Positions 1 to 59,830 of a DNA stretch of 64,000 nucleotides are shown here, piece by piece. Source of the stretch: Cymbidium sinense (taxonomy: Eukaryota > Streptophyta > Magnoliopsida > Asparagales > Orchidaceae). Made by a program: the position numbers and the translations under genes. Within the stretch, counting starts at the first letter, position 1; each line of letters starts with the position of its first letter. A model generated the notes under the pieces. That model was not told where the DNA came from, did no database searches, and was given only the letters and a program-made list of their open reading frames with translations. Location: NCBI GenBank assembly GCA_021442155.1, contig CM038225.1, positions 82,596,925 to 82,660,924 on the forward strand. Reading direction: 5' to 3'.

Positions 1-233
1 GATAATGATGGCTAACTCCATACCACCAATCAAAGCCTAATACTTGGCTTTGTTGTTGGTGCAGGGGTTGGAAAGTATGAGAATCTCATCACATCACAGT
101 ATAGAGTTAAGAGAACTATTCCTACCCCTGCCTTTTCTGGAAGAGTAGATTGTGGTGTTTCCCCTTTGTGAAAAGAAGCTGTACCATCAAAATACATCTC
201 CCATCGGTGGTTGCTGGCCTCCCCTAAGTTCAT
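1..233 (-). pseudogene. Second (archaeal-type) RNase H domain, truncated by window edge
   Basis: The minus-strand peptide contains WEMYFDGTA followed by GVGIVLLT, the opening of the RNase H fold, with the first catalytic Asp in YFDG. After a frame change it continues with a CTNNKA..ALIGGMEL-like stretch at about 1-60, the usual second block. In the family this domain removes the RNA strand of the RNA/DNA hybrid or contributes regulatory binding. It follows the RT-linked RNase H directly, which is the Tat/Ogre arrangement. At least one frameshift and one stop interrupt it. The rest lies outside the window. Confidence 0.75.
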
Positions 234-374
234 GATTTATTCATCAGGGAGATCATCATTAAGCGGAGAATCAGCAGGAAGTGGGTGTGCTGCTAAGAAA
301 TCCGCTAGTGTTTGTTCTTTAACCGCATAGAGAGGTATGCATGTGATATCAAACTGTGAGAGGATCATGGACCA

Positions 375-770
375 TCATGCAAAATGTCCGGATAGCATTG
401 GCCGTGTCATGAGATACTGTAGTGGATTGGTTCTGAAGATCAAGTTCACCTTATGAGAAAACATGTAGTGTCGTAGCTTTTGAGAGGCAAAGATCAAAGC
501 TAGGGAATGTTTCTCAATAGGTGGATAGTTTGCTTCAGCAGGAATCAGATGATGGCTGAGGTAGTATAGATCATTCTCCTTCCCTTCATCATTAGCTTGG
601 CCCAATACAATGCCAAGAGAGTCATCCAATGCAGCAGTGTAAAGGATGAGTGGCCTGCCCGGGATAAGGGCTGCTAGAACTGGCTGCTTCACCAAATACA
701 GCTTGATGTCTTCAAAGACATGTTGACACTTGTCATCTCACTTGAACTTGGCATCCTTTTTGACAAGTGC
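375..770 (-). pseudogene. RT-linked RNase H domain
   Basis: A 106-residue open stretch (375-695) includes LILYTAALDDSLGIVLGQ, then LYYLSHHLIPAEANYPPIEK and SLALIFASQKLRHYMFSHKV. This matches the RNase H connection of Ty3/gypsy polyproteins: a beta strand with a catalytic Asp position (usually D-A-S, here partly changed to T-A-A-L-D-D), the Y-S/H-L block and the ALIFASQKLRHY helix. It degrades template RNA during minus-strand DNA synthesis. It sits directly downstream of the RT core. Upstream of residue 1 the frame is lost by a frameshift near 700-740. Confidence 0.85.
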
Positions 771-799
771 TGAAAATGGCTTGCATCTCCCCGATAGGT

Positions 800-1395
800 T
801 GCAAATAAAGCATCTTAGATACTCCAGTCATCTTTGGAAGGATCAGAGTTGAGTTAAACTCTTAGGAGGTGGCATTTTTAAGATAGCTTTGATCTTTTGA
901 GATCTATTTCTATTCCCCGATGTCAGACAACAAACCCAAGGAATTTTCTTGAAGATACTCCGAATGCATACTTCAGGGGATTCATTTTGAGGTTATATTA
1001 TCTTAACTATTCAAAAACTACTCTCAAGTCAAAGAGGTGGTCTTCCTTTTTTCTACTCCAGATTACTAGATCATCAACATAACACTCAACCTGATAATGG
1101 ATGAGTTCATTGAAGATCTGAGTCATGGCCCATTGTATGTAGCACCAGCATTTTTAAGGTCAAAAGGCATGACCCTATAACATATGATTCTGATCGGGGT
1201 TCAAAAAGCAGTGTTTCTTTCATCTTCAGGAGACATCTTGATTTGGTTGTAGCTAGATGACCCATCCAAGAAAGAGAAAATGACATGAGATGAGGCGATG
1301 TCCACCATTAATTCTAATATAGGAAGAGGAAACTCATTCTTAGGACATGCCTTATTTAAGTCCATGAAATTGAATGCACATTTGAATTTGGCCAT
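800..1395 (-). pseudogene. Reverse transcriptase core
   Basis: The clearest part is a 64-residue frame (1201-1395) with DLNKACPKNEFPLP and the FSFLDGSSSYNQIKMSPED block, the palm-domain strand bearing the first catalytic Asp. Continuing in shifted frames at about 1050-1200 are the MPFDLKNAGATY block and a YVDD box, the catalytic pair of aspartates. The enzyme copies element RNA into DNA in the virus-like particle. At least two frameshifts and one stop break the domain, so it is inactive. The domain order with its neighbours is normal for Ty3/gypsy pol. Confidence 0.9.
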
Positions 1396-2954
1396 TCTTC
1401 TTCTTAACTGACATACACCGCAACAAGGTAGGATATTTTTCTTTCGATGAAACCAAAGATCGATCGCTTGACTTCTAAATGACCCGTTGTTCGATTTCTA
1501 ATCGCACGCGTCTAGGAGCTTGCTTGATATGATTAGCGTTAGGATCTATTGCTATCTTGTGGACTACTACATCAGAAGATAATCCGGGCATCTCTTCATA
1601 ACTCATGTGAAGTAGTTTTTAAACTCAGTCAATAGCCAAACTAATTTATTGGTTTCTTCTTCATTCAGCAATGAACTGATGTACGTCGGGCGTGGATTTT
1701 CTTCTATCCCGAGGTTGTTTTCTTTAAGCTTGACAATTGTTGAATGGATCTCCTCTTCAAATTATGGAGGTGCATCCTTGATTTAGAGATCATCTAAGTC
1801 ATCTCAGATTTCTAAACACACATTCTCATAAGAGTTGGTGTTGTGTGAAAAGAACCTATCAGACTCTAAATGATTGGTAACAACTAAGTAGTAATTATCA
1901 TCAACGACTGGACCTACTGTACCGAATCTTAGTCTTGCTCTTGATTGTGCTTCCTTGCATGTATTGTTCCATAACTTTTTAATGTGCTCTGACCTGTGCC
2001 TGGACCATGTATGAGGAACTAAACCTTTCTGTATAAGATTATGAACACAAGGCGAGTAAAAGTCAAATGGTAATTCCATTAATTCTTTAAATGTATCCTC
2101 CTCAAGTTCTACATCAACTTTGAGACTTGAGTATGATGATCCCAAAAATAATATCTTCGGCTTCATATCACTGGAAGACTTAGGGGCTTCTTTAACTACT
2201 AAACCTTCAACTTTTTGAGATGAAAGTGAGGTTAGAACTAAGGTTCCTAGCTGCTGCCTAATAGTGTCAGATAAACTTGATTCAAATACTTTGCTTTGTC
2301 TGGAGGCCCAATTTTTGTCATCATCTAGATCGAAAGTCACCTCCAATGGAACCCACTGAGAGGGGATGGCTGGTATACTAATCACATTAGACTCATCCTC
2401 CGAGCTGGATTCCAAGTCTATGTGAATACTAGGGGTACTCTTATGAACTGGGACATGACCCATGTTGGCTGATGGCCAACCAAAGGGTCTTCCACCTTTG
2501 GAACTACCTCTATTTCTGCCTATGCCTTTGCCTGGTGGGGGTCGAGTCATCCTACCCACATGTCCATATGATGGAATGGACTGTGGGTGGAATGTGGTAT
2601 GCAAATCTATTTCTTCTTCAATTCCCCTTTCTTGTTCACTTGGATTTTCATTTTTCTTTTCTTTTTCTTTTACTTTTTTTTCATTTTATTTTTCTCTTGA
2701 ATTTGAGTTTTGTCCAAGTTCTCAAGAAAGGGTGTTTTGAGGAAGATAGTAGGTCACATCCTCATAGATCTTAACCTCTTTAACTAAAAATAGCTTTTCA
2801 TCTCCATTGACACGGTATTCAATCCCATCCTTTCTGAACTTGATGTCCTAATGGAGGGAGGATGGAATTATCTTATTTTGATATATCTAAGGCTTACCGA
2901 GTAAGTAGTGAACGAAGTATTCAAATTAATGATGTAAAAGTTGGCTTCAATCTT
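1396..2954 (-). pseudogene. Pol linker between protease and RT
   Basis: A 266-residue open frame (1804-2604) carries a glycine/arginine-rich N-terminus (PPPGKGIGRNRGSS), an acidic serine patch (DLESSSEDES) and a hydrophilic remainder with a VVDDNYYLVV stretch near the C-terminus. I recognise no catalytic domain. Plant Tat/Ogre-type polyproteins have a long, poorly conserved, acidic spacer between protease and RT, and position and composition fit that. The remaining bases on both sides (1396-1803 and 2605-2954) are in broken frames. It is the longest open frame in this element, but I would not treat it as a separate gene. Confidence 0.6.
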
Positions 2955-3415
2955 CTAGTCACCTATCTCGAAAGGTAATATTATAGAACTTAAAGCCCGC
3001 TCACCTTGTTTATTGAATCCTCTCAATATCATCTGATCTCTTTGGAGTGTAGAGATGTCGATCCTTAAATAGGAAAGGGTCTTTAGAATCATAATGTTCA
3101 TCATGTCAATCGAGAACTGGAAACTGAATTTTCCCATGTCAACTGTGATGTAGAGGGGACGGTTGTGCTCCAAGTCCCCCAGAAGTAGGTCTTCATCTGT
3201 GAAGGTGATCCCCTGAGCTTTTTTGTGTAATGTGCCTCCTCACCTATAGCAGTCAGTTGAGCTAAGCATATCTTAGGATCAAGGAGAGCCTTGATTAGTG
3301 ATTCTCTCATTTCTTTGGATAAGACAGGGGCATCATATATGCTTAGCTTAGATGACAACTTTCTTAGATGAGAGAGGACATTGTAGTCCACCTTAGGTTG
3401 ATCCTCCACAAGCAT
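2955..3415 (-). pseudogene. Aspartic protease domain, active site degenerate
   Basis: Two overlapping minus-strand frames (3101-3415 and 2955-3173) cover the protease. The stretch HNRPLYITVDMG, then a strand with SIDMMNIMILKTL, then LRGFNKQGERALSSIILPFEIGD follow the plant Ty3/gypsy protease pattern: flap strand, catalytic Asp loop, and the helix-strand pair after it. The family has D-T/S-G (often D-G-G-S) at the active site; here the position reads I-D-M-M, so the glycine/serine part is lost. The protease normally cuts the Gag-Pol precursor. A frameshift near 3100-3170 joins the two frames. Confidence 0.75.
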
Positions 3416-3417
3416 AT

Positions 3418-4640
3418 CTAAGGGTGGAGCATCCTATGGAGGGGCTTCTCGATCCTCTGTACCAATGACTTCATCTTGAGGTGCTGCCTAGGAGGTAGAA
3501 CATTGCCACTAAGGAGGTTGACTTCGATGATCTCTTGTGGCAGGGTAATGGAAGGTTCTACTTGCACATCAGGCTCACCTACAACTTCTCCTATGGGACC
3601 CTCAAAATCAGATGATTCCAAGTCTATCTCAAGAGGTGAACTTGTAGCATTTAGAGTAGGAAAGTCTAACTCTGAATCAGAAAGAGGAAGATCAAAATTA
3701 TTAATGTTATTTTGATATGAAGAGTTATCATTAAGAATAGAAGTAGACAACCCATCAGAAGTAACACAGATGTAATTCATGCTAGATTTATTCTTCAATT
3801 TCTTAGATTTGATAGGAGGTACAAGGTAGAAGTCAAGTAAAGTAAGTGGGGTAAGGGATTATTTGCCCATACAAGAGTTCTACTAGTAGAAAAGAAGAAC
3901 TAGAAGTAGAGGAAGTCACCATGTGGTAGCGTAGGACGGAGGGACTGATTAGTGATTGCCACCGGGCTATTCTGACACATGCTTGTTGCTAAGCTTCCCC
4001 TTTCCCCGAGTTGGCACTGAAAACTTGCAAACCTTCCTTAATGTTAAAGGTTTGAGCTGACTCAGGCACCTATAAGGAAAGTTTCTTGATCTTTTGTACA
4101 ATCTTTTTAGAGGTTTTGAATAAAGAGATATCCCAACTTTTTTTAGTTTTGGAAGGACCACAAGTATCCCCAAGGATTACCCTAATGAAACTGGATGGTT
4201 ATTCCACAAGGTATTCCTTCGGGATAACTATAACACTAGTCTTGAAGCTATATTCAAGCCAGTCCTTAAATGTGAAGCAATCCTCCAAAACATAACTTTG
4301 CAGATGGTGGTAGGGGCAAAAGTTAGGATCATGGCTTTTGCCCACTTCCTCTAATCTCTAAGCTTGGGTAGCTAAAAATCAGACTTCTTTAAGAGATTCT
4401 TAAAGATCTTCTTGATTACCTCCCTCTTAAATGAATAAGGTTTGTTGAGTTTATCCAAAAGAGTAAGTGGACCATATACGACAACGTATATGTACACGCG
4501 ATGATATGGTCGAGGAGGCTGCCGGGCCGTGGAGGCGCTATGGAGGTTGGTAGGTCGCCTGGTGGTGATAGAGGTGGGTGAGTTCGTGGTCTTGACTGAT
4601 CTCTCTAGCTTGCTCTTATCCATTGTCATTGTCACACGCT
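3418..4640 (-). pseudogene. Gag-protease spacer
   Basis: Includes a 126-residue open frame (3418-3798) that is acidic and serine-rich (for example LDLESSDFEGP-like stretches) with no recognisable fold. The rest, to the end of the gag core, is in broken frames with basic segments. I see no intact CX2CX4HX4C knuckle. In this family the stretch between capsid-like Gag and protease is long and variable, so this is most likely spacer. No function is claimed. Confidence 0.5.
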
Positions 4641-6130
4641 TTCCTCATATACCTTCTATGGCTTTGCTTTGGGCAACTGGTCTTGAAAAGAGAACTGTTT
4701 GGCCTATCATTGTAGAGTAGCCATCTTATTGATTAGCTTCTCAAAGGTTTTGATGGTGAAGCCCTTAAGCGTGAAGGTGACCGTGCCATGGATATTTTTT
4801 AGAAGAATCTCAATGGCATGCTGCTCAGACAGCTGTAGCTCACATTTCATACTCATGTTATGCCATCTGAGAATGTAATCAACAAGGGACTCACTTGGGT
4901 GTTATTGTGCTACAACAAAATCGACAATAATAACCCTTTACTGAGCTCTAGTAAACCTCTTGATAAAGAGTTACTCCAACTCAGCAAATATCTTCACTGA
5001 ACTATTGGGAAGTTCAGCATACCAATCGAAAGCTATCCTTGCTAGGCTACTGACGAAGAGGCGGGATAGCAAAGCATCGTTGCCACCGGTGTTGCAACAA
5101 CTGGCTCTAAAGTGTGTAATATGTTGCCTCGGGTTTCCACTACCATCAAAACTATTGATGGAATGTGGCACGAAACCCTTTAGATATTGGATTGCGTCAA
5201 ATTTCTCCGGGTAGGGTCTATCCTTTGGAACTGATGATCCTCCCCAGTCTTGAGCCAACGCTTCCTTCACCTGCTGCTCAACCATGGAATTTATAGCTTT
5301 TTTCTTGTATGGAGTTACTTTCCACTACCTTCCTATACATGCTAGTGCTTCCTTGCTCGATGAGAGGCTAGGTCTTGACTGGGTCCAAGACATGCACTAA
5401 CTCTGGCTGACTAGTCTCAGCTGTAGTAGGATGAACTGCTAGTTCTTATTTCTAAAGTACTGAGACTGCTGCTAACAAATCCTCAAGCTGCCTCGCCATC
5501 TTATCTATTTGTTCATCTTTCTTCTTAAACTGATATTGGAGGTGTTGGGCTGATTGGGCTATGTCTTCCTGCTCAACCTCACTTTCCATAGCCTGCTGCT
5601 CTCTAAGGAGGGATCCCTTGGAATCTACCATGGAAACCCTAGCTGAGTCTCCTAAAAAATCATCTTCGTTAGGATCAAAGCTAATCTTCTCCTCATCAGA
5701 CTAGTCATATCCTAGAATCCCCTTCTTTTCCATAAAATAGTGAGCTACTATATTATCTAAAGATCGATCTATCAAAATTGGCACAAATGCTTTCAGTTGA
5801 CCATTGATGGGACCCACATCATGAACTGTGAGGCACTGGACCTCCCCTGCTACTGGAGAATCAATTCTATGAGGATTGTACTCACTAGAAGAAATGCACT
5901 CCTAGCTGTCACTGACCCTGAAATAGGTGACACTCCTAGGAGGCTCTACTATCATGGGTGCAACATGGCTATCATCTCCTCCCTCTACAACTCTTGCAAC
6001 CATCTCTATGTCCTATTGAATTGGTGGTGTTGGTGAAGGGATGACCACTATGCTTTGGGGTCACCATTCCTTCCGCCACACCATGGGTAAGGTCAGGAGA
6101 GCTCACCTCCAGAGGTGTAGATGGAATGGG
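4640..6130 (-). pseudogene. gag (retrotransposon capsid region)
   Basis: The core (4971-5285) reads like a plant retrotransposon Gag: YLKGFVPHSINSFDGSGNPRQHI, then LFVSSLARIAFDWYAELPNSS. It continues in shifted frames at 4740-4970 with FIKRFT-, VDYILRWHN- and FEKLINKMA-like blocks, the typical helices of the capsid N-lobe. Upstream (5285-5733) is a hydrophilic, probably coiled-coil segment (KKKDEQIDKMARQLEDLL). A Met codon lies at 5731-5733, but readable frame continues to about 6130, so the true start may be farther upstream. Gag would form the particle that packages element RNA. Several stops and frameshifts are present. Confidence 0.85.
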
Positions 6131-6256: not shown

Positions 6257-7230
6257 GTGTGGTGGAGACACCACTTACTCTCTCAAAATAGGGACCCTCT
6301 TCCTATGATAGGTCATCCATGTAAGTAGAATACTATCTATTTGATCAATGTGGGTAGCACACCGATCAAGAAAATCAATGAGTGTGACCGGCACCAAACC
6401 TTGCCTCTTTCACTAGTGATTTGAATCAAGTGGGCATCGCCCTCTCCTACAGAATGTTTCCCCATGCCGTGGGATGATGGATCTCATCAATTGAGCCTGA
6501 CTTAGAACATCAGAAGGCCAACCTAGCAGAATCAACGGAGGTGCATATGACCTCCGCTTAAAATGAAATCAAGCATGTGAAGTATGGATCCTCCTAGAAT
6601 CCACTCTGTCATACCCTAAAGAGAGGATGAAATTGGTTAACCAAGTGGAAATCAGTACCTCCTCCATGACCGACCGCGGCCTCCATCTCCTAGAGATGCG
6701 GTATGGTACCTTAATCATGCGCTTTTGTTTTCTCAGTCCCGCAGGGGTGAGTGGAGTAAGAACTAGACCCAACCTCAAAAGCTGGGGAGGAAATCTCTGA
6801 GATCATAGGAGCCTAACCCTTAGAGGGTGCTAATGAGTGGGTGCTAGCCCAGAGATGGAAACCACAGACACACTGCTACCATGCATCACACCGCACCGGT
6901 GTAGAACGCCACCGCCTTCCTCGTGAGGAGAGAAGTCGATGGCAAATCAATCTAAATGACTGCTTCTACCACCTACTATCTGTGAGGGGAGTGCCTAGTG
7001 ATCCTCACCCCCTTGAAACCTCTATAGAAATGGATGAGATGGGTGTAATCAACTGGGAGAACCCATCCAAGGCCAAGTCCATACCAGGGGAAAGTACATA
7101 CTTCCAAGCCATATAGTCAAAAAAAAAATTGAACTATAGTCAAATGAGATCGATGCCGAGAATCTAATATTGGAAACAAACTTGTATCAGATTTCTGCTT
7201 TGTTGACTTCTAAATTTGAATTTAAAAATT
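6131..7230. other. Leader segment between gag and hairpin array
   Basis: Part of the 5' leader of element 1 (transcribed on the minus strand). It has short, broken frames on both strands, none recognisable. Ogre elements often carry an extra ORF before gag; no convincing remnant is seen here. Apart from the GA microsatellite I see nothing assignable. Confidence 0.5.
6219..6254. repeat. (GA)n microsatellite
   Basis: Uninterrupted GA dinucleotide run of about 18 units in the leader of element 1 (CT on the element's sense strand). Confidence 0.95.
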
Positions 7231-9190
7231 GAACCCACATACAACATCTTGGAAGTGCTAAGTGGGGTTCAAATGAATTTAGAGAAGATTTAGAGATTTG
7301 ACTGGGAAGAGGAATTTTTGAATATGAATCTAATTTTAATAAATTTGGGTATGTTGAAATGGGTTCACATATTTTAGAAAGATGCTTCCATAGGTTCATG
7401 TTTGAAATTAGATTTTGATTTGAGGACCCTTTCCTTTAACAAATTTGAATATGTTAAAGTAAGGGTCAATTGGTTTTGTTTTTGATTTGATATTTTGCAA
7501 TCCACTCACTTAGCAAATTTGGGTATGTTAAGTGAGGTGTTTGAAAAAAATGTTTCTTTTTCTTTGGTTGTTTTATCTTATGAATTATTGGTGATTTTGA
7601 AAATTGGAATTCCCACATAGCAAATTTGGGTATGCTATGTGAAGAACCCAAGTGTGTTTTATTTTTTTGGAAGATTTTTGAAAATAAGATTCTTAGCAGA
7701 TTTGAGTGTGCTAAGAAAATCCTAAAGTGTTTCATTTGTTTTAAATATTTTTTATTTTTGAAAAATAGGTTCCTTAGCAAATTTGGGTATGCTAAGAAAA
7801 TTCTAATATATTTATTTTTTATTCTAATTTATTTTTGATAAGTATGATCCTTAGCAAATTTAAGTATGCTAAGGGATTCCTAATGTGTTTCTTTTTGGTT
7901 TTCATTTGTCTTTTTTTAAAAAAAATTGAAAGTGGAGACTTGATTTTGGCAAATATGGCATGATAAAAATGAAGTTCCCCTTAATTTTGTGAAATGGAAA
8001 TTTCACTAAGCAAATTTGAGTATGCTAAATGAAATTCCAAAAGAGGTGTTTAAAATTTTTGTGTTTTGGTTTAAAAATGGAGGCTTCACTTTAGCAAATT
8101 TGGTATGCTAAAGAGTGAAGTTCCAAAAGTGTTTCTTGAAAATTTTGTAAAATGAAAATTTCACTTAGCAAATTTGAGTATGCTAAATGAATTTCCAAAG
8201 AAGGGTGTTTCAAAATTTTGTTTTAGATTTTAAAAGCGGAGACTTCATTTTAGCAAATGGGGTATGCTAGAATGAAGTTTCAAATATGTTTTGAAAATTT
8301 TTGTTTTTGATTGATTTTGAAAAGAGAGATTTCCTTTTAACAAATTTGAGTATGTAAGATGGAAATCAATTATGTTTCATTTTCCAAAGATGTATATTTT
8401 GTGTGTAATTATTTCTTTTAGAAAGAGGAAATCCTAATTTAATCATATGTGGAATATGTTAAGTGGGATTTTAAATTGATGTCATTTTATTTGGAAATGA
8501 AATTTTCATTCAATAAATTTGGGTATATTGAATTGAGATATTCATATGTGCTTTTGAAAAAATTTAGTGTTGTTTGAAAATGAAACTTCCATTTAATAAA
8601 TATGGGTATATTGAATGGAAAGGTTCATATGTGCTTTCAAAAATTTATTTATTTTTTATTTTGTTTGAAAAGGAGTCCTCCACCCAATAAGTGTGGGTAT
8701 ATTGAATGGAGAGGTTTCATATGTGCTTTTTGAAAATATGAAAATCCCAACCTAGCTCATGTGGAATGTGTTAGGTGGAAGTTCAAAAAGTTATGGTTTT
8801 ACTTGAAGAGGTAATATCCATTCAACACATTTGGATGTATTGAATGGAAAGGCCTATCTTCAAATTTAATCTTTTTGAAAATATGATTGTTGGAATTTTT
8901 ATTTTTGAAACTGAGGTCTTCACCAAAAATGAATTGAGTGAAGAAACACATTTGTATTTTTAGAAAAAATGTAATTATTGGAATCTTATTTTTGTAAAGA
9001 TGATCTTACATAATAATCATCAAGATTGTTAGATGAAGATGATTTAGGAAAATTTTTGTGCAGAATATTTTATTATGTGCATTTTTGAAAGATTGCTTTT
9101 TGAAAAACATGGTTTTTGATAAGGATTTATTTTGACTTTATTATTTTAGAATGAACCTTTCCTTACCATAGAAATGATAAAGGGGAAGTC
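7231..9190. repeat. Array of about 23 hairpins with conserved loop and co-changing stems
   Basis: Imperfect palindromes recur about every 84 bp (spacing 60-107). Approximate extents: 7231-7270, 7325-7368, 7425-7467, 7503-7539, 7614-7641, 7690-7717, 7773-7796, 7849-7874, 7939-7975, 7996-8038, 8079-8124, 8154-8196, 8239-8281, 8328-8367, 8428-8473, 8508-8533, 8582-8626, 8677-8714, 8746-8778, 8817-8848, 8917-8944, 9003-9034, 9155-9190. The loop is usually close to AATTTGGGTA or AATTTGAGTA, but the arms differ and still pair: CACATAGCA/TGCTATGTG, TTCTTAGCA/TGCTAAGAA, CCTTAGCA/TGCTAAGG, ATTCAATA/TATTGAAT. At 8239-8281 the 17-nt arms differ only at two positions that would be G-U type pairs. Spacers are T-rich and partly repeated (TTCATATGTGCTTT near 8540, 8623 and 8716). 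It lies in the leader of element 1, so the RNA would carry it on the minus strand. Confidence 0.9.
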
Positions 9191-9431
9191 TTTAAATATT
9201 TTCTTTTTATTAGATCTTTTTATTTTTATCCATTGGAGAACTCAACAGGGGTTTTAAGACCAACACGTGGCAAGGTCCTAAAACCTAAAGATGCTGACTA
9301 GCTTAACTTATAGATGAAATAAGCTAAGTGCCATTGGAACGAAAGATAGTCTTGGATTCATACCAAAGTACGAACCCACTATCGATAGTTGGAGACAATG
9401 ATCATTTGCCAAAGATGGAGAGAGGAACCAT

Positions 9432-9448
9432 CCCAATTTGAGTCACCA
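9432..9448 (-). other. Degenerate primer-binding site of element 1
   Basis: On the minus strand, 8 nt after the LTR end, the sequence reads TGGTGACTCAAATTGGG. It aligns with the better preserved site at 20408-20424 and begins with TGG, as a site pairing with a tRNA CCA end should. The flanking leader bases (GATGGAGAGAGGAACCAT on the plus strand) are the same at both sites. Confidence 0.7.
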
Positions 9449-10968
9449 GAAAATCTGTGGTGAAATTTTATATGTAATTTCTAAAGAAGTACAATATATA
9501 TTTCCATCTTCACTCTATGTGGGATAAAAATGAAGATAGAAATATACATCTCTTTTTTATACATTTTTTTAACACCACATAGATCCACATATATTCTTAT
9601 TGAGGGTGATCGGGTATGACATTGAGGAGGTGTACTATCTCAAAAGATAGAAAACACCACCCTACAATGGACCTAATCACATCAACAAGGACTCCTAAAG
9701 ATAGTGGATCTGCATGTGTGCCAATGATTCTTCCCCTGCTTTACATGGAAAAGTAAAGTAGGGTTTATTTTAAATCGTATTCGTAAAGTTCCCTATAGGG
9801 GCAAGCCCCATAGTTAATTATATCCTAAGGGATGAGATCTCTTAGGAATACTCTCGATTAAAGTAAATGATCATTATCTCCAAAGATTTTAATAAGTAGG
9901 ACTATCAATCGATTAGTTTGTTTTGGAAGATTAAATGAGATTGATCAAAAAGAGGGAGTTATTGTCTAAGCCAAAGGAAGATAAGTAGAAGATGCTCACG
10001 ATGCTAGGAAACCTAGCGAGCATCTCAAACTATCCTATGGTTGGGATTTACATTTTTGAAATTGAATTATTCATTTGAGTTGACATTTTATTAGAAGTTT
10101 GGGGCTTATGATTCCAAAACACAAGGTTATGGAAATGCCTAAGAGGTGAGGATTTATGCTTATGGACCATAGAAGGGAGAAGCAACCTTAGAACCTAAAT
10201 CTAAGGAGCTTTGGGCCAAAAGCAAACCTAAATCTAAGGATGGGTATTTGGTTTGCCTCCACAAGAGAGCAAACCACAACGCTTGGACTTACAACCTGGC
10301 ACCAACTAACTCCTACTATTCTAAATTCATGTAGGCAAGTCATATGCTTTATGCAAGATAACTAGGCTATTATTTATTTAGAAAGAGACTATATCCTTAA
10401 ACTCACTCCCTAAAGAGACTAGATCATGTAGGTATGCATCAAATGACCTAAATCTAATGCAAATCATATTACATGTTATTTTAATTTTTGGATAATCATT
10501 TGACTCAGGCTTATAGGATTCGTATGACTAATGCATGAGAAGTAAGATTATTGGCCAAACTCAGTGAGAAGGGAGGAGGTGTGTTTCCACCATGGCTCTC
10601 AAAGGTCAAGCAAAGTTTCTCTGGAAAAGGTGGAAGCCCTCCAATCAGTGAAATAATATGCATTTGTGCATGATAAAAGAAATACTCATCCACTAAGGGG
10701 TTGCTAATTCTTTTATCTTGATTTTAGCTAAGTTTAAGGTTATGAGTTCTTTATTTTAATTTTGAATTGTTAAATTTGGTAGAAGATTTATTTTTTTCTA
10801 AGAGCCTAATCCACATCCAGGCCATACATCAAGCAAGGAAGAAACTAGGAAAATGATGTCATCTTAATGCACAAACTAAACAAATCATCAATTAATTTAT
10901 AAAGCTAACACAAAAGAATAAGAGGCCATTTGTGGTCGGGCACCATCGCAAAAACCTGAAAATAAATA

Positions 10969-14200: not shown

Positions 14201-15019
14201 TCAGATTAGGCCAAAATTTAGCCCACACCTTCATCATGCAATGTAGATCATATCTAACGGCTAAAATCCCATGGGATTAAACTTTCTTTCACAAAGCTTC
14301 ACACTATGGCTAGATTAAGCTCTAAAAATGGTTTTCCTCACCGGAGGTGATCATCCACTGATCTTGAGAGCTTAGTGAGATAAGCTTTGTGAGTTTGAGC
14401 TCGAGATTGAGTATATTCTTCTAGAGACCAACTCCTCTTGAACTCCTTGTGGCTTTGATCGAATTAGATCCTCTCTTGCCTTTGGAGCTTGGGAAAGACC
14501 TTAGATGAACTCGAATTGGTCCTCCAATGAAGCTTGAAGAAGGAATTGGGTTGATGTTGAGTGTTGAGGTTGGTCAAAGCTCCCTATTTTCAAAAAAATC
14601 GAGGATGGAGATTTTAAACCCTCTCTAGGAAGCTTGGGAAGACTCTCTAAGGCTTTCTCTGGGTTCCTATGCTTCAATCTATTAGGGCAGAGTGAAAATT
14701 TTGTTGAATTAGGAGGAGTATATCTCCCCCTTTGGCAATCGGATGGCCGAGCAATGCCTAGCTATTTTGATTAATCAACCTCATGCAATGAGTTAGTTAG
14801 GTTGTTTTGAATTGTATGTGGTTCAATTTTGACTAGAGAAGGAGTGGGTGAGGTGGCCATGTGCTTGAATTGAGTGTGAGGAGAATTCCATGTGCTCCAT
14901 TTCAAGGCATGTGATCAGTTTGGCCATTGGGCTAGGTTGGATGACCCAAACCCATTGGGTTGGGTGCACCACACTCCCTAGTGTTCACATGATCCACTAA
15001 GAGAGTGCCAAGTGGTTAT

Positions 15020-16110
15020 GGAAAGGATTTGACCAAAGTCCAAGTAAATTTGGCTAGAATTTACCCTATGGCATAGAGGTAAAATGGTCATTTGACCTTG
15101 ATTTTAGTTTGGGTATGTTTGATATGATGAGAAAATAGGTTTGGCCAAGTTTCATTGAATTTCAAGTTGGTTTGATGTGATTTGGCTCATGTTGACCTAT
15201 TTAGGTCAAAATGGGTCAACTTGAGTCAAGTTGACCAAATGGTCAAATTAGGTCAAACTAAGGGTTGGGTCAAGTTCATATGACCATTTGAAATGTTTTG
15301 GTGGCTTTGGTTTGATTCAATTTGGTTTAGATTTGAATTTGGTTCATTTGATTTCATTTAGGTCAAATGGGTCAAGTTGACTAATTTGACCCATTTGACC
15401 TATTTGAGTTAGGTCATGGGTAGGTTTAGGTTTGGTTGGTTATATGAAAGGGATTGGTATCTTTGTTTCTAATCAATTTTGGTTAAGTTTGAATTTGGCT
15501 CAATATGACCCTTTAGGTCAAGTTGGGTTCAAGGTCAATTGTGCTAAGTTAGGTCTACTTGGTCAATTGAGGCTTTGGTCAAGTTCAACAATCATTTTGG
15601 AATGAACTTGACCCATTCGTTTCAATCAATTTGGCTTAGATCAAGTTTTGGCACATTTTGACTTTTTAGGTCAAGTTGGGTCAACTTAGGTCAAGTGGCC
15701 AAGTTAGGCTCAATGTTGACTTGGTCAAGTTCAAACTTTGATCATGAATGAACTTAGATCATTGGTTTCAATCAATTTGGCCTATGGTGGATTTTGGCTA
15801 TGTTGGGTTTCATTTTGGCTAAGTGTTGACTTGGTCAACCCTTTAGTTTGACTTGATTTGACTCAATTTGAGTGATTGATCATCTCATGATGATTGTTGA
15901 TCATGATGAGAGGTTTAGGTGAGTTTGATTCAATCTAATTTGGTTAGGATTAGAATTTGGCTCATAAGGATACTTTAGGTCAGTTTGGGTCAAGTGAGCC
16001 TAAGTAGGTCAAATGGCTTGGTCAAAGCTTGATTTGAGTTTGATTGAACTTGTATATGGACTTATGTTTGAAATATAAATCCATTTGCAAGTGGTTTGAA
16101 GTCAAATGGG
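15020..16110. repeat. TTGAC/GTCAA-saturated segment of LTR 1
   Basis: GGTCAA and TTGACC recur roughly thirty times in about 1.1 kb, on both strands, often as facing pairs that can fold. TTGAC followed by C or T is the W-box core bound by WRKY factors in plants. LTR 2 has a weaker version at 26300-26500 and 26620-26700. Whether it is regulatory or simple-sequence expansion cannot be told from sequence alone. Confidence 0.7.
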
Positions 16111-16329
16111 TTTTAATTTATTTGACAATTTCATATTTAAAGAAGGAACATGCATGAATTTTGGCTTGACTTTTGAATTGAGTTTTGATTTAGTGATAGA
16201 AGTTTGTATTGATATTTGGATTCATGATTGAAGGATTGATTGAATTATGAAGAAAAATCAAGAGTTTGGCTTGATTTGAAGTTGATTTGGCCAAGTTCAG
16301 GAATTTGACTTGAAAGGCCTAGGTTGGAT

Positions 16330-17065
16330 TTTGATTGAATTTGAATTTGACTTTTGGAGTTGGTTTTGGTTGTTTGAATTTATATTTGATTTATATATGT
16401 GAATATAAATTGGTTATGAGAAAATTTCATGAGTTTGAAGTGATTTGAAGATGATCTAGTCTAAGTCCTTAAGAGAAAATCAAAGTGATTTAAGAAAGAT
16501 TTTAAACTTGGAATTGAATTCTAGATTTAGTTAGACTGATTTAAATTTATATTTCATTTATATATGTGGATATAAATGAAAATATAAATGACTTATGAGA
16601 AAATTCATGAATTTGAATTGATTTAAAGATGATTTAGGCTAAGTCCATGAATGGAAATCAAAGGACTTATGGAAGATTTGGGATTTGGAATTTGAATTTT
16701 GGATTTAGTTTTATTGATTTGAATTTATATTTCATTTATATATATAAATATAAACGAGAATATAAATGAGTTGTGAGAAAATTTTATGAGTTTGAATTGA
16801 TTTGAAGATGATTTAGACTAAGTCCTTAAGAGGGAATTGAGGACTTAGGAAATATTTAGAATTTGGAATTTCAACTTGGAATTTGATTTGGTTGATTTAA
16901 ATTTATATTTCATTTATATATGTGAATATAAATGAGAATATAAATGGGTTATGTGAAAAATTCATAAATTTGAATTGACTTAGATTTGATTTAGGCTAAG
17001 TCCTTAAGAGGGGATTAAAGGACTTAAGAAGGATTTTGAACTTGGAATTTCAATCATGGATTTCA
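16330..17065. repeat. 178-bp tandem repeat, about four copies, in LTR 1
   Basis: The landmark TATATTTCATTTATATAT recurs at 16548, 16726 and 16904 (spacing 178 and 178), with a diverged copy at 16381 (TATATTTGATT). Each unit also contains GAATATAAATGA-like, GATGATTTAGRCTAAGTCC and TTGGAATTTGAATTT-like stretches. The unit length is in the range of plant satellite monomers. Confidence 0.9.
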
Positions 17066-17394
17066 ATCATGGGTTTCAATCATGTGGCATTGATTTGAGT
17101 TTGGTGAAAATCAATTAGGCTAGAATTGATTTAGGTTTGATGTTGATTTGATTTGGAGTTTGACTTGAAGGAAGGAAGCAAGGAATGTGGTTCAAACTAT
17201 AGGTAGGCAAATTTTCCTAACACCCCTAAGGTATGGCTTATTCCTATGGCTAACTCTTCTAAGTCTCTAGGGCTAGGTTGAGTGTCCACCTAATCAGTAG
17301 ATGTGTCTTAAGGCTAAGGATCTATTAAAGGCTAAGAGGAGTCCTATGTCTAAGATGGAGGAGTTGAGAGCTCATCCTAAAAATGAGGTCAACA

Positions 17395-58119: not shown

Positions 58120-59830
58120 AATTGTATCAAAATATTCAAATTAGAATAAGAATAGGTCTTGTTGTGTGCAGAAAGATTCGGGTCAGTAGAGTGAGAGAAT
58201 TCGATGTGTTAGCGTTGCATAAAAGTTCCGCACACACAATAAAAGAATTTGAGAGACGCCAGAATTTTTATATGGAAAACCCAAGAAGGGAAAAACCACG
58301 GGTCAAGCCCGCTTAAAATTAATTTCACTATATTAGTATTTGTTACAATTATTATTATTTCTCTAAAGTTAGAGAAGAATAACTTACAAGAGTTAAGTTT
58401 TGTGACAAGCTTCACTGGATTAGCGGCGAAGGCTTTGCTTGAGTTGGTAGTCTCATGATCCGACGAAAACTATCGAAAGATTATCGAGTGACGGTTAGTA
58501 GCAGCTAACGATGGTGAACGGTGCAGTCGACGGTGATCCGACGACTATCGGGATGTGATAGCTAGCGGTGGTGACTGGTGGTGGCGGTCGGCGATGGCAT
58601 GGTGGCCGGCTGGTGGCCAATGTTGACCGGCGATCCGGCGACGTATGGCCAGCGCGTGACCAACCGCGTGGCCGACGATGATCCATCGGTGGTTGAGCGG
58701 TGACCAACAATGGTACGACCGCATCGATATTGACCAGCGATCCCGGGTCGAGGTCAATCAGTGGTGACCAGCCGACAACGGTGGTGGTGACTATCGGGCG
58801 GTGCGCTGGCGACCGCGATTGTGGTGTACGGTGGTTGGCGGCTAAGAGGACCGACGGTGGTGGCCGACGACTGTGGTCGGCGGCGACGATGACCGGCGGT
58901 GGTGGCTGACGGTGATGGCCGGCGGCAGTGGCCGACGATGGTCGGCGATGATCCAACGAAAATCAGCCGATGGCGGTGGGGACCGCCGGCCGGCGATGAG
59001 GATCGGCGGTGGCCACGGTGGCGTGGTCGGCTAATCGCTGGCGAGACAGCAATGCGGTAGGCAGCAGACCGGCAGTGTCGAGGACCGGCAATGGTGGCCG
59101 ACGGCGGCGGTGGTCAGCGGCGATGATGACCGGTGGTGATGGCCGACGTCGGTGATGACCGACGGTGGCAATCGGCGGCGATGATGACTAGTGGTGGTGT
59201 CCGCCGGCAGTGGCTGGTGGTGGTGTCCAATGGCAGCAGCCGACGTGGTGGTGTCCGATGGTAGTTGCTGGCGGTGGTGTGTCCGACGGGTGTCCGACGG
59301 CGATGGTCGGCGATGGTCGACAATGATCAGGTGAAGGTCGGTCGGTAGCCCGATTAAGCTTTGAGATTTTTCAAGTCTTAGAGCTCTCTCCTCTCTTTAG
59401 CTTGAGCTCCCTTCATGTGAAGAATGTGAGATTACTTAAATATTTTGGATGTAGTATTTCTGTAAATACAAGCAAAATCCAAACCACTCAATCAGACAGC
59501 TCAAAATGATTCTTTCAATAATCTAATATATTTTAAGTATTTGAATGCTCAAATGAAGTCAAAATTAAGAGATCTTATGCTTGCTAGATCCGGCTCGTCA
59601 AGACGCTCGATTTGATTATAAACACTCCATATTTATGAGCTATTTAGAGATCCGACTGATATCCCAAAGTTTTCAATTATATTTGAAGTATTTGATTTGA
59701 GCTAGTCTCGACTCAGAATCATATTGCTTTCAAAATCAAGATTCGTGCTTCAACTAGTAGAGTTTTCAGTGACATATAAGGTCCCATCCTTGAATCAAAG
59801 TTGAAATAAGTTTTATACATAAATAACATA
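58120..59830. repeat. Unclassified interspersed repeat, copy B, with GC-rich minisatellite
   Basis: Head (58120-58490) contains a TGGAAAACCCAAGAAGGGAA and AAACCACGGG stretch that resembles repetitive plant sequence. The middle (58490-59340) is a degenerate minisatellite of GGTGGCCGACGATGGTCGGC-like units, strongly CpG-rich within an AT-rich neighbourhood. The tail (59340-59830) aligns with copy A. Proline/histidine-rich frames on the minus strand (58495-58956, 59114-59323) are by-products of the repeat. Class unknown. Confidence 0.65.

Follow-up and report, generated by a model that had tools for sequence, protein, structure and literature searches.

Covarying hairpins in the 5' leader of a Tat/Ogre-like retrotransposon family of Cymbidium sinense: a candidate packaging array

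The retroviral leader carries packaging and dimer-initiation hairpins between the PBS and gag, and one of these hairpins has a palindromic loop near the PBS. To our knowledge, few of the cis-acting signals by which plant LTR retrotransposons package and dimerise their RNA have been mapped, and narrow searches of the open-access literature for such signals gave nothing. Among the papers listed from the open-access literature, we recognised no retrotransposon leader with an array of covarying hairpins.

According to extracts of two reports, the tandem arrays of Tat elements lie for the most part between pol and the 3' LTR (PMC7004042, PMC11963269), and their localisation varies, the 3' position being the most frequent one (PMC11963269, extract). 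Ogre and Retand possess an additional aRH domain which is placed between RH and INT (PMC6317226, extract), and the PBS of Ogre-type elements is described as antisense to tRNA-Arg (PMC9289625, extract). Hairpins whose two arms change together are known from another context, as template-switch mutations during DNA replication create and maintain RNA hairpins in rRNA genes (PMC8794818, extract).

The locus studied here belongs to the orchid Cymbidium sinense. In the window, which is the whole stretch of 64,000 nucleotides that was analysed, a tandem array of hairpins occupies part of the region from a PBS-like site to gag.

The element and the position of the array

The minus strand carries a decayed Ty3/gypsy element, read in the order PBS-like site, array, gag and RNase H, of which the window includes the 5' LTR side only. 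Its features are, from the low coordinates upwards:

33 to 236, minus strand: putative aRH fragment, similar to the second RNase H found in Tat elements
378 to 737, minus strand: polyprotein domain RNase H, matched by Pfam RT_RNaseH_2 (E 1.4e-21) and also by Pfam RT_RNaseH
4974 to 5324, minus strand: gag piece of 117 aa, matching a Dendrobium nobile protein with 63% identity over 89% of the length
7228 to 9190, minus strand (sense leader): array of 23 anchored hairpin units, 17 of them with the canonical loop
9250 to 9285, minus strand: separate hairpin of 12 pairs (one G.U) with a 12-nt loop containing the palindrome CACGTG
9428 to 9448, minus strand: PBS-like sequence TGGTGACTCAAATTGGGATGG

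Protein comparison relates the gag piece to known plant retrotransposon gag. The Dendrobium nobile protein, whose UniRef name starts with 'Retrotransposon gag domain-contain', is the sole named gag match, and the lineage is not settled by it. 5' of the RNase H domain within the element we found pieces which we take, from their motifs, to be RT-like and protease-like; neither gave a supporting Pfam match. The fragment at 33-236 may be aRH-like; it gave 0 matches against Pfam and PDB and sits where aRH would be expected, and INT would fall outside the window. From its sequence features the element likely belongs to the Tat lineage (Ogre/Retand) of Ty3/gypsy. An open minus-strand frame of 293 aa (1807-2685) was observed between the protease-like and RT-like pieces and has one relative, with 50% identity across 53%. 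The gag, RH and RT pieces gave no confirmed relative among the viral contigs.

Read from 9448 along the minus strand the PBS-like site is TGGTGACTCAAATTGGG, and the LTR edge probably lies just past it, near 9456. The three minus-strand frames of 1-5324 contain 94, 136 and 94 stops, and therefore the copy in the window is dead. A location in the leader of a Tat/Ogre-like element had already been claimed from the letters, and it holds: in the minus-strand element the array is flanked by the PBS-like site on one side and gag on the other, about 4.1 kb separating these two, and would therefore be part of the genomic RNA. The separate hairpin at 9250-9285 (z-score -3.14; 3 of 200 shuffles were equally good) is some 163 nt away from the PBS-like site along the sense strand. 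It resembles a dimer-initiation site in position and form and may act as one.

Other repeats are present in the window. A second G-rich stretch at 15000-17200 contains many different inverted repeats; a 20-nt arm pair with a 4-nt loop is found at 15359-15402, and a ~178-bp tandem array at 16305-17063 has units with TAAGTCC/GGACTTA and CATTTATAT/ATATAAATG hairpins. GC-rich overlapping minisatellites with periods of 13-42 bp lie in AT-rich surroundings at 58831-59286.

Hairpin units and the strand on which they fold

The sequence-only reading counted about 23 hairpins, and 23 inverted-repeat units could indeed be anchored, with loops spanning 7244 to 9174 and a spacing of 61-149 bp (mean 87.5). 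Hairpins with 6-13 nt loops and a score of at least 8 number 13 in 7231-9190, compared to a mean of 2.2 and a maximum of 7 in 200 dinucleotide shuffles. A AATTTGGGTA-like loop (AATTTGRGTA-type) is present in 17 of the 23 units. The six units with a non-canonical loop (u01, u15, u19, u21, u22, u23) were anchored partly by pairing, and the key tests were re-run without them. Two of these, u15 (8430-8472) and u19 (8744-8784), have the common loop TGTGGAAT, which is unlike the others and perhaps represents a second loop type.

Identity in the loop is 0.73-1.00 in nine of ten columns and 0.47 in the tenth, and 0.25-0.73 at stem positions 5-14, a comparison which is biased toward the loop because the units were selected by it. 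The loop and the inner stem ends are conserved as sequence. With regard to a kissing-loop idea, AATT occurs in 12 of 23 loops (11 canonical ones and u21) and is absent from six of the 17 canonical loops.

Units referred to in the following are:

7426 to 7467, minus strand: u03, long-stemmed hairpin with -14.9 kcal/mol for the sense RNA
7607 to 7648, minus strand: u05, hairpin with the plus-strand arms CACATAGCA/TGCTATGTG
7683 to 7882, minus strand: u06 to u08, neighbours in which pair 8 is T-A, C.A and C-G in turn
8239 to 8281, minus strand: u13, hairpin whose arms of 17 nt show 88% complementarity
8500 to 8715, minus strand: u16 to u18, a subgroup with inner stems CAATA/TATTG (u17: TAATA/TATTG) versus TTAGCA/TGCTAA
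8812 to 8853, minus strand: u20, the most stable of the 23 hairpins as sense RNA, -17.9 kcal/mol

The stem examples quoted earlier are exact. For u13 only G-U type differences had been stated, which is correct for the plus strand with its two G.T pairs, but in the sense RNA these are A.C and not wobbles. The plus-strand C.A at pair 8 in the series u06-u08 corresponds to a G.U wobble in the sense RNA. In other copies of the element u05 appears as CACTTAGCA/TGCTAAGTG in 18, and two have the changed first arm alone. Some units are weak: the local sense folds of u02 and u09 reach about -1 kcal/mol, and u22 folds without its loop.

Folding of the minus-strand leader, a check proposed with the first description, predicts that most of the hairpins form. 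When the whole leader is folded, 16 of 23 hairpins appear on the sense strand and nine of 23 on the antisense strand (criterion: at least five loop-anchored pairs), and with shuffled spacers (20 runs each) the numbers are 14.8 and 7.2. G-poor insulating spacers as the cause of the cleaner sense fold were rejected, strand-symmetric spacers giving 14.0 versus 7.2. As the gap persists with shuffled or symmetric spacers, its cause lies within the hairpins. The G content of the sense loops is 2%.

A protein-coding repeat (the minus frames show YPNLL-like repeats) was considered and rejected, since only three of 22 spacings are multiples of three; also the array ORF 7469-7828, compared with the protein collection, gave 10 candidates, none at E 0.01. 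A search of 6800-9600 against Rfam 15 produced one match, which has an E of 0.48, stays under the gathering score and lies outside the array. The loop-stem pattern had 0 matches in the viral contig collection; in the genome contig collection it was found in 13 bacterial or archaeal stretches with one match each, which we took as chance.

Covariation of the arms within the window and across the family

If the units derived from one palindrome and decayed neutrally, pairing within a unit should be no better than pairing with an arm taken from a related unit. The summed hairpin energies of the 23 units are -283.9 (plus) and -264.3 (minus), with permuted means of -179.4 and -148.3, and 0 of 20,000 permutations that swapped the arms were as low on either strand. 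Because such a permutation overstates significance for related units, we used disjoint unit pairs matched by loop and spacer likeness. In 11 matched pairs (u20 left over) the own arms gained in Watson-Crick pairing over 12 positions in eight cases, lost in none and were equal in three (p 0.004). The canonical 17 units form eight pairs (u02 left over) with six positive, no negative and two zero results (p 0.016), and 16 units without u09 gave six positive, two zero and no negative of eight. The gain of the own arms in energy was positive in 8/11 (all) and 7/8 (canonical) matched pairs for the sense strand, and in 9/11 and 6/8 for the plus strand. When units were paired by adjacency, nine positive, one zero and one negative result were obtained for all units and six, four and one for the canonical ones, i.e. 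two negatives among 22 pairs in total.

In 14 units with 10-nt canonical loops 82.7% (plus) and 81.6% (sense) of 196 cells pair, compared to 66.6% and 66.4% with shuffled arms and 46.2% and 47.4% in the best slid register. Two-sided change is seen in 12 of the 14 pair columns; the further pair types on the sense strand are unexceptional (56/500). On a loop-and-spacer tree, which is poorly supported (6/14 values below 60), we counted 17 Watson-Crick double changes, 39 breaks and 21 restorations, and 300 arm shuffles on the same tree gave means of 5.8 (maximum 13), 71.7 and 18.3, respectively. Two-sided transversions, which have no G.U intermediate, make up six of the 17 inferred double changes. 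Neutral decay simulated on the tree yielded an own-minus-swapped value of 0.21 with a maximum of 1.32, versus 2.74 observed, a value reached in 0 of 2000 simulations. Swaps, column changes, tree and simulation agree in supporting the original claim that the stems change on both arms with pairing kept. The covariation exceeds what swapped or shuffled arms and simulation allow for, and we are highly confident that the arms covary beyond shared ancestry, between unit types.

When 321 bp of the array served as query against the same genome, at least 42 matches were listed, with 40 of 3523 candidates scored. Apart from the window the matches are 78-91% identical. The array is present in 39 of the 39 copies chosen by array likeness, with 8-20 loops each (motif-only count), a span of 1714-2679 bp (window 1960) and a median pairwise identity of 0.888. 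Own arms pair better than swapped arms in all 40 of these arrays (window included), with a mean gain of 2.34 of 12.

Because these copies were picked by the array itself, a second search was done with the gag piece, which resulted in at least 150 matches among 52,144 candidates, window included, the others being 69-82% identical. From the 149 gag relatives 40 were hand-picked over the list, and the stretch ~1.7-4.5 kb 5' of gag was examined. In 35 of these 40 an array BLAST match was found, the leading pieces being 65-85% identical; L063, L073, L085, L094 and L099 gave no array BLAST match, although two of them do contain loop motifs, 15 in L073 and 10 in L099. Own arms exceed swapped arms in 35 of 35 gag-chosen arrays (mean gain 1.85). 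The 656 loop-anchored units of these arrays pair at 7.86 of 12 positions, compared to 3.27 for 48 opposite-strand motif matches. It had been stated beforehand that young intact elements lacking the array would refute the reading; the gag piece is without a stop in 18 of the 40 relatives, and 15 of these 18 have the array, so no such refutation came about. Thus the array proves to be a family trait, whether copies are chosen by array or by gag. In L074 and L092, two gag relatives, 36 and 31 loop-motif matches were observed in 2.8 kb (14 in the window by the same count), and certain subfamilies may therefore have an expanded array.

These comparisons cover paralogous units in one species, and most of the variation between copies postdates insertion. 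For the same unit across copies 4973 of 6384 cells pair, versus 4959.8 with swapped arms (sd 6.0); 37 of 2000 permutations were as high. Units u01, u02, u09, u15, u19 and u21-u23 were omitted here, having few ungapped copies or being non-canonical, and L044, which matches only to ~7902, was removed after u08 because its compensated cells looked like alignment artefacts. By this removal the excess fell from the earlier 4988 versus 4951.8 to the values given. Compensation becomes more frequent as a change is shared more widely: among carriers, which are not independent, it is seen in 3 of 164 if the change is private, in 12 of 162 if two to three copies have it and in 13 of 120 if at least four copies do. 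Closely matched units from different gag-chosen copies (308 pairs from the 656 units) gave 66 positive, 45 negative and 197 zero results (p 0.057), and splitting this compensation by thirds gave nothing significant. Compensated-pair runs between matched units number 64, of which 57 have length one, six length two and one length three. Divergence among copies is 0.087 in stems, 0.086 in loops and 0.128 in spacers. At pair 2 a C>A change recurs in at least six units, in 4-7 copies, and may be an alignment shift.

Resident copies thus decay nearly neutrally at each unit. As just 3 of 164 private changes are compensated, pairing was kept in the replicating lineage and not by repair of resident copies; the covariation is old, lies between unit types and arose in that lineage, which makes it less likely that the host maintained the stems through DNA replication or repair. 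The suggestion of a DNA palindrome family kept symmetrical by intrastrand repair in resident DNA is therefore disfavoured. The sequence-only reading called the array the reverse of ordinary decay; template switching is a published precedent for this (PMC8794818, extract), and the resident copies do in fact decay ordinarily at each unit.

Possible functions, alternatives and comparison with known systems

We incline slightly to the view that the array is a sense-RNA structure kept by selection. In a high-copy Tat/Ogre-like family the 5' leader RNA would then form a necklace of ~20 short hairpins, each presenting a nearly G-free loop close to UACYCAAAUU, with a stem whose sequence drifts while pairing is held. 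Pairing would have been preserved in the replicating lineage through selection acting on the sense RNA, and tandem units could be gained and lost through strand transfer or slippage during reverse transcription. The hairpins may cooperate as a multivalent set of binding sites, the most likely ligand being Gag during packaging of the genome, and the PBS-proximal dimer-initiation-like hairpin at 9250-9285 perhaps acts beside them. Gag binding is favoured because the stems are free, the loop is fixed, and there are many copies near the PBS, as in repeated protein-binding hairpins. By this analogy the predicted packaging role is a tentative proposal. The same degree of caution applies to the complete picture of a family-wide modular array for packaging or dimerisation, with one loop code and drifting stems, grown by slippage of reverse transcription and held by selection.

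Several observations stand against selection on the sense RNA: there is no G-U preference, two-sided transversions occur, compensation between close units is not significant, the excess at the same unit across copies is small, adjacent-unit swaps include two negatives, and the tree is poorly supported. In the 656 units no sense wobble preference is seen, the observed/expected values being 0.73 for G.U and 0.71 for A.C (ratio 1.03, 95% 0.95-1.11). When the 12 innermost pairs are taken from 17 units of the window, the plus-strand mismatches comprise 18 G.T and eight A.C (expected 30.2 and 24.9), and this excess of G.T over A.C leans opposite to the sense wobble expectation. A tolerance of G-U in the transcript may be hidden by decay after insertion.

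Template switching, for which reverse transcription is now the most plausible stage, could copy arm onto arm so that no function is needed, an explanation we regard as unlikely without being negligible. Such a process has been published for DNA replication (PMC8794818, extract), and it would fit the six two-sided transversions as well as mismatch types without strand preference. Because of these transversions a mixture of selection and template switching is possible. However, template switching is unseen in resident DNA, where so few private changes are compensated, most compensated runs concern a single pair, and the copying of arms leaves the conserved loop and the inner stem ends unexplained. 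Inverted loops are rare as well: in each of the 40 stretches chosen by gag, 0-7 motif matches fall on the opposite strand, compared to 3-36 in the array orientation, and only in L085, which has no array, do opposite-strand matches exceed same-strand ones (6 vs 4). Furthermore, many units retain C.A at pair 7 (228/656 A-C cells).

That the hairpins serve gag translation instead of packaging, by shunting, internal entry or skipping of upstream frames, seems improbable. The long distance from the PBS-like site to the gag piece and the formation of the hairpins in the sense strand would agree with it, but many repeats of one loop resemble a set of binding sites more than a single shunt structure. 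We consider it very improbable that this is an ordinary tandem array in which one ancestral palindrome decays neutrally and pairing reflects shared ancestry. Tat elements do commonly carry tandem arrays, resident copies decay nearly neutrally per unit, and close relatives lack significant compensation; against this, own arms exceed swapped arms between unit types in 75/75 arrays (40 + 35, which share ancestry and are not 75 independent tests), none of the neutral simulations matches the observation, and several independent ancestral palindromes with one common loop would be needed. The suggestion that the hairpins, which are located in the transcribed leader, are a source of small RNAs silencing or regulating the element is hardly credible judging from stem length, since ungapped stems of ~7-17 bp are below that of usual plant Dicer substrates.

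The closest known counterparts of the array differ from it in several respects. The orchid element Gypsy_Pa_2799 (Tat/Ogre-related) is a Tat element with two RNase H domains, and the named gag match of our element is also from an orchid; Gypsy_Pa_2799 differs by its demethylase domain, and the word 'hairpin' is absent from the extract of its description (PMC9289625). The template-switch hairpins of rRNA genes share two-arm changes preserving pairing, but they were seen in RNA gene histories, whereas the resident copies here show none such (PMC8794818, extract).

With the HIV-1 psi leader the element has in common hairpins between PBS and gag in the genomic RNA and a PBS-proximal palindromic loop. 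The psi hairpins are few and distinct, whereas here ~20 related ones stand in tandem. A repeated covarying array across a large family is a candidate signal open to direct probing, and paralogous units in one molecule together with many decaying copies provide a test bed for stepwise selection versus arm copying.

The tandem arrays of Tat elements (Ogre, Retand) are alike in the lineage, as judged by gene content, in being a non-coding array inside the element and in their variable unit number. The word 'hairpin' is absent from the extracts of PMC7004042 and PMC11963269. While those arrays are described at the 3' side, the array in C. sinense precedes gag and is built of hairpins whose arms covary.
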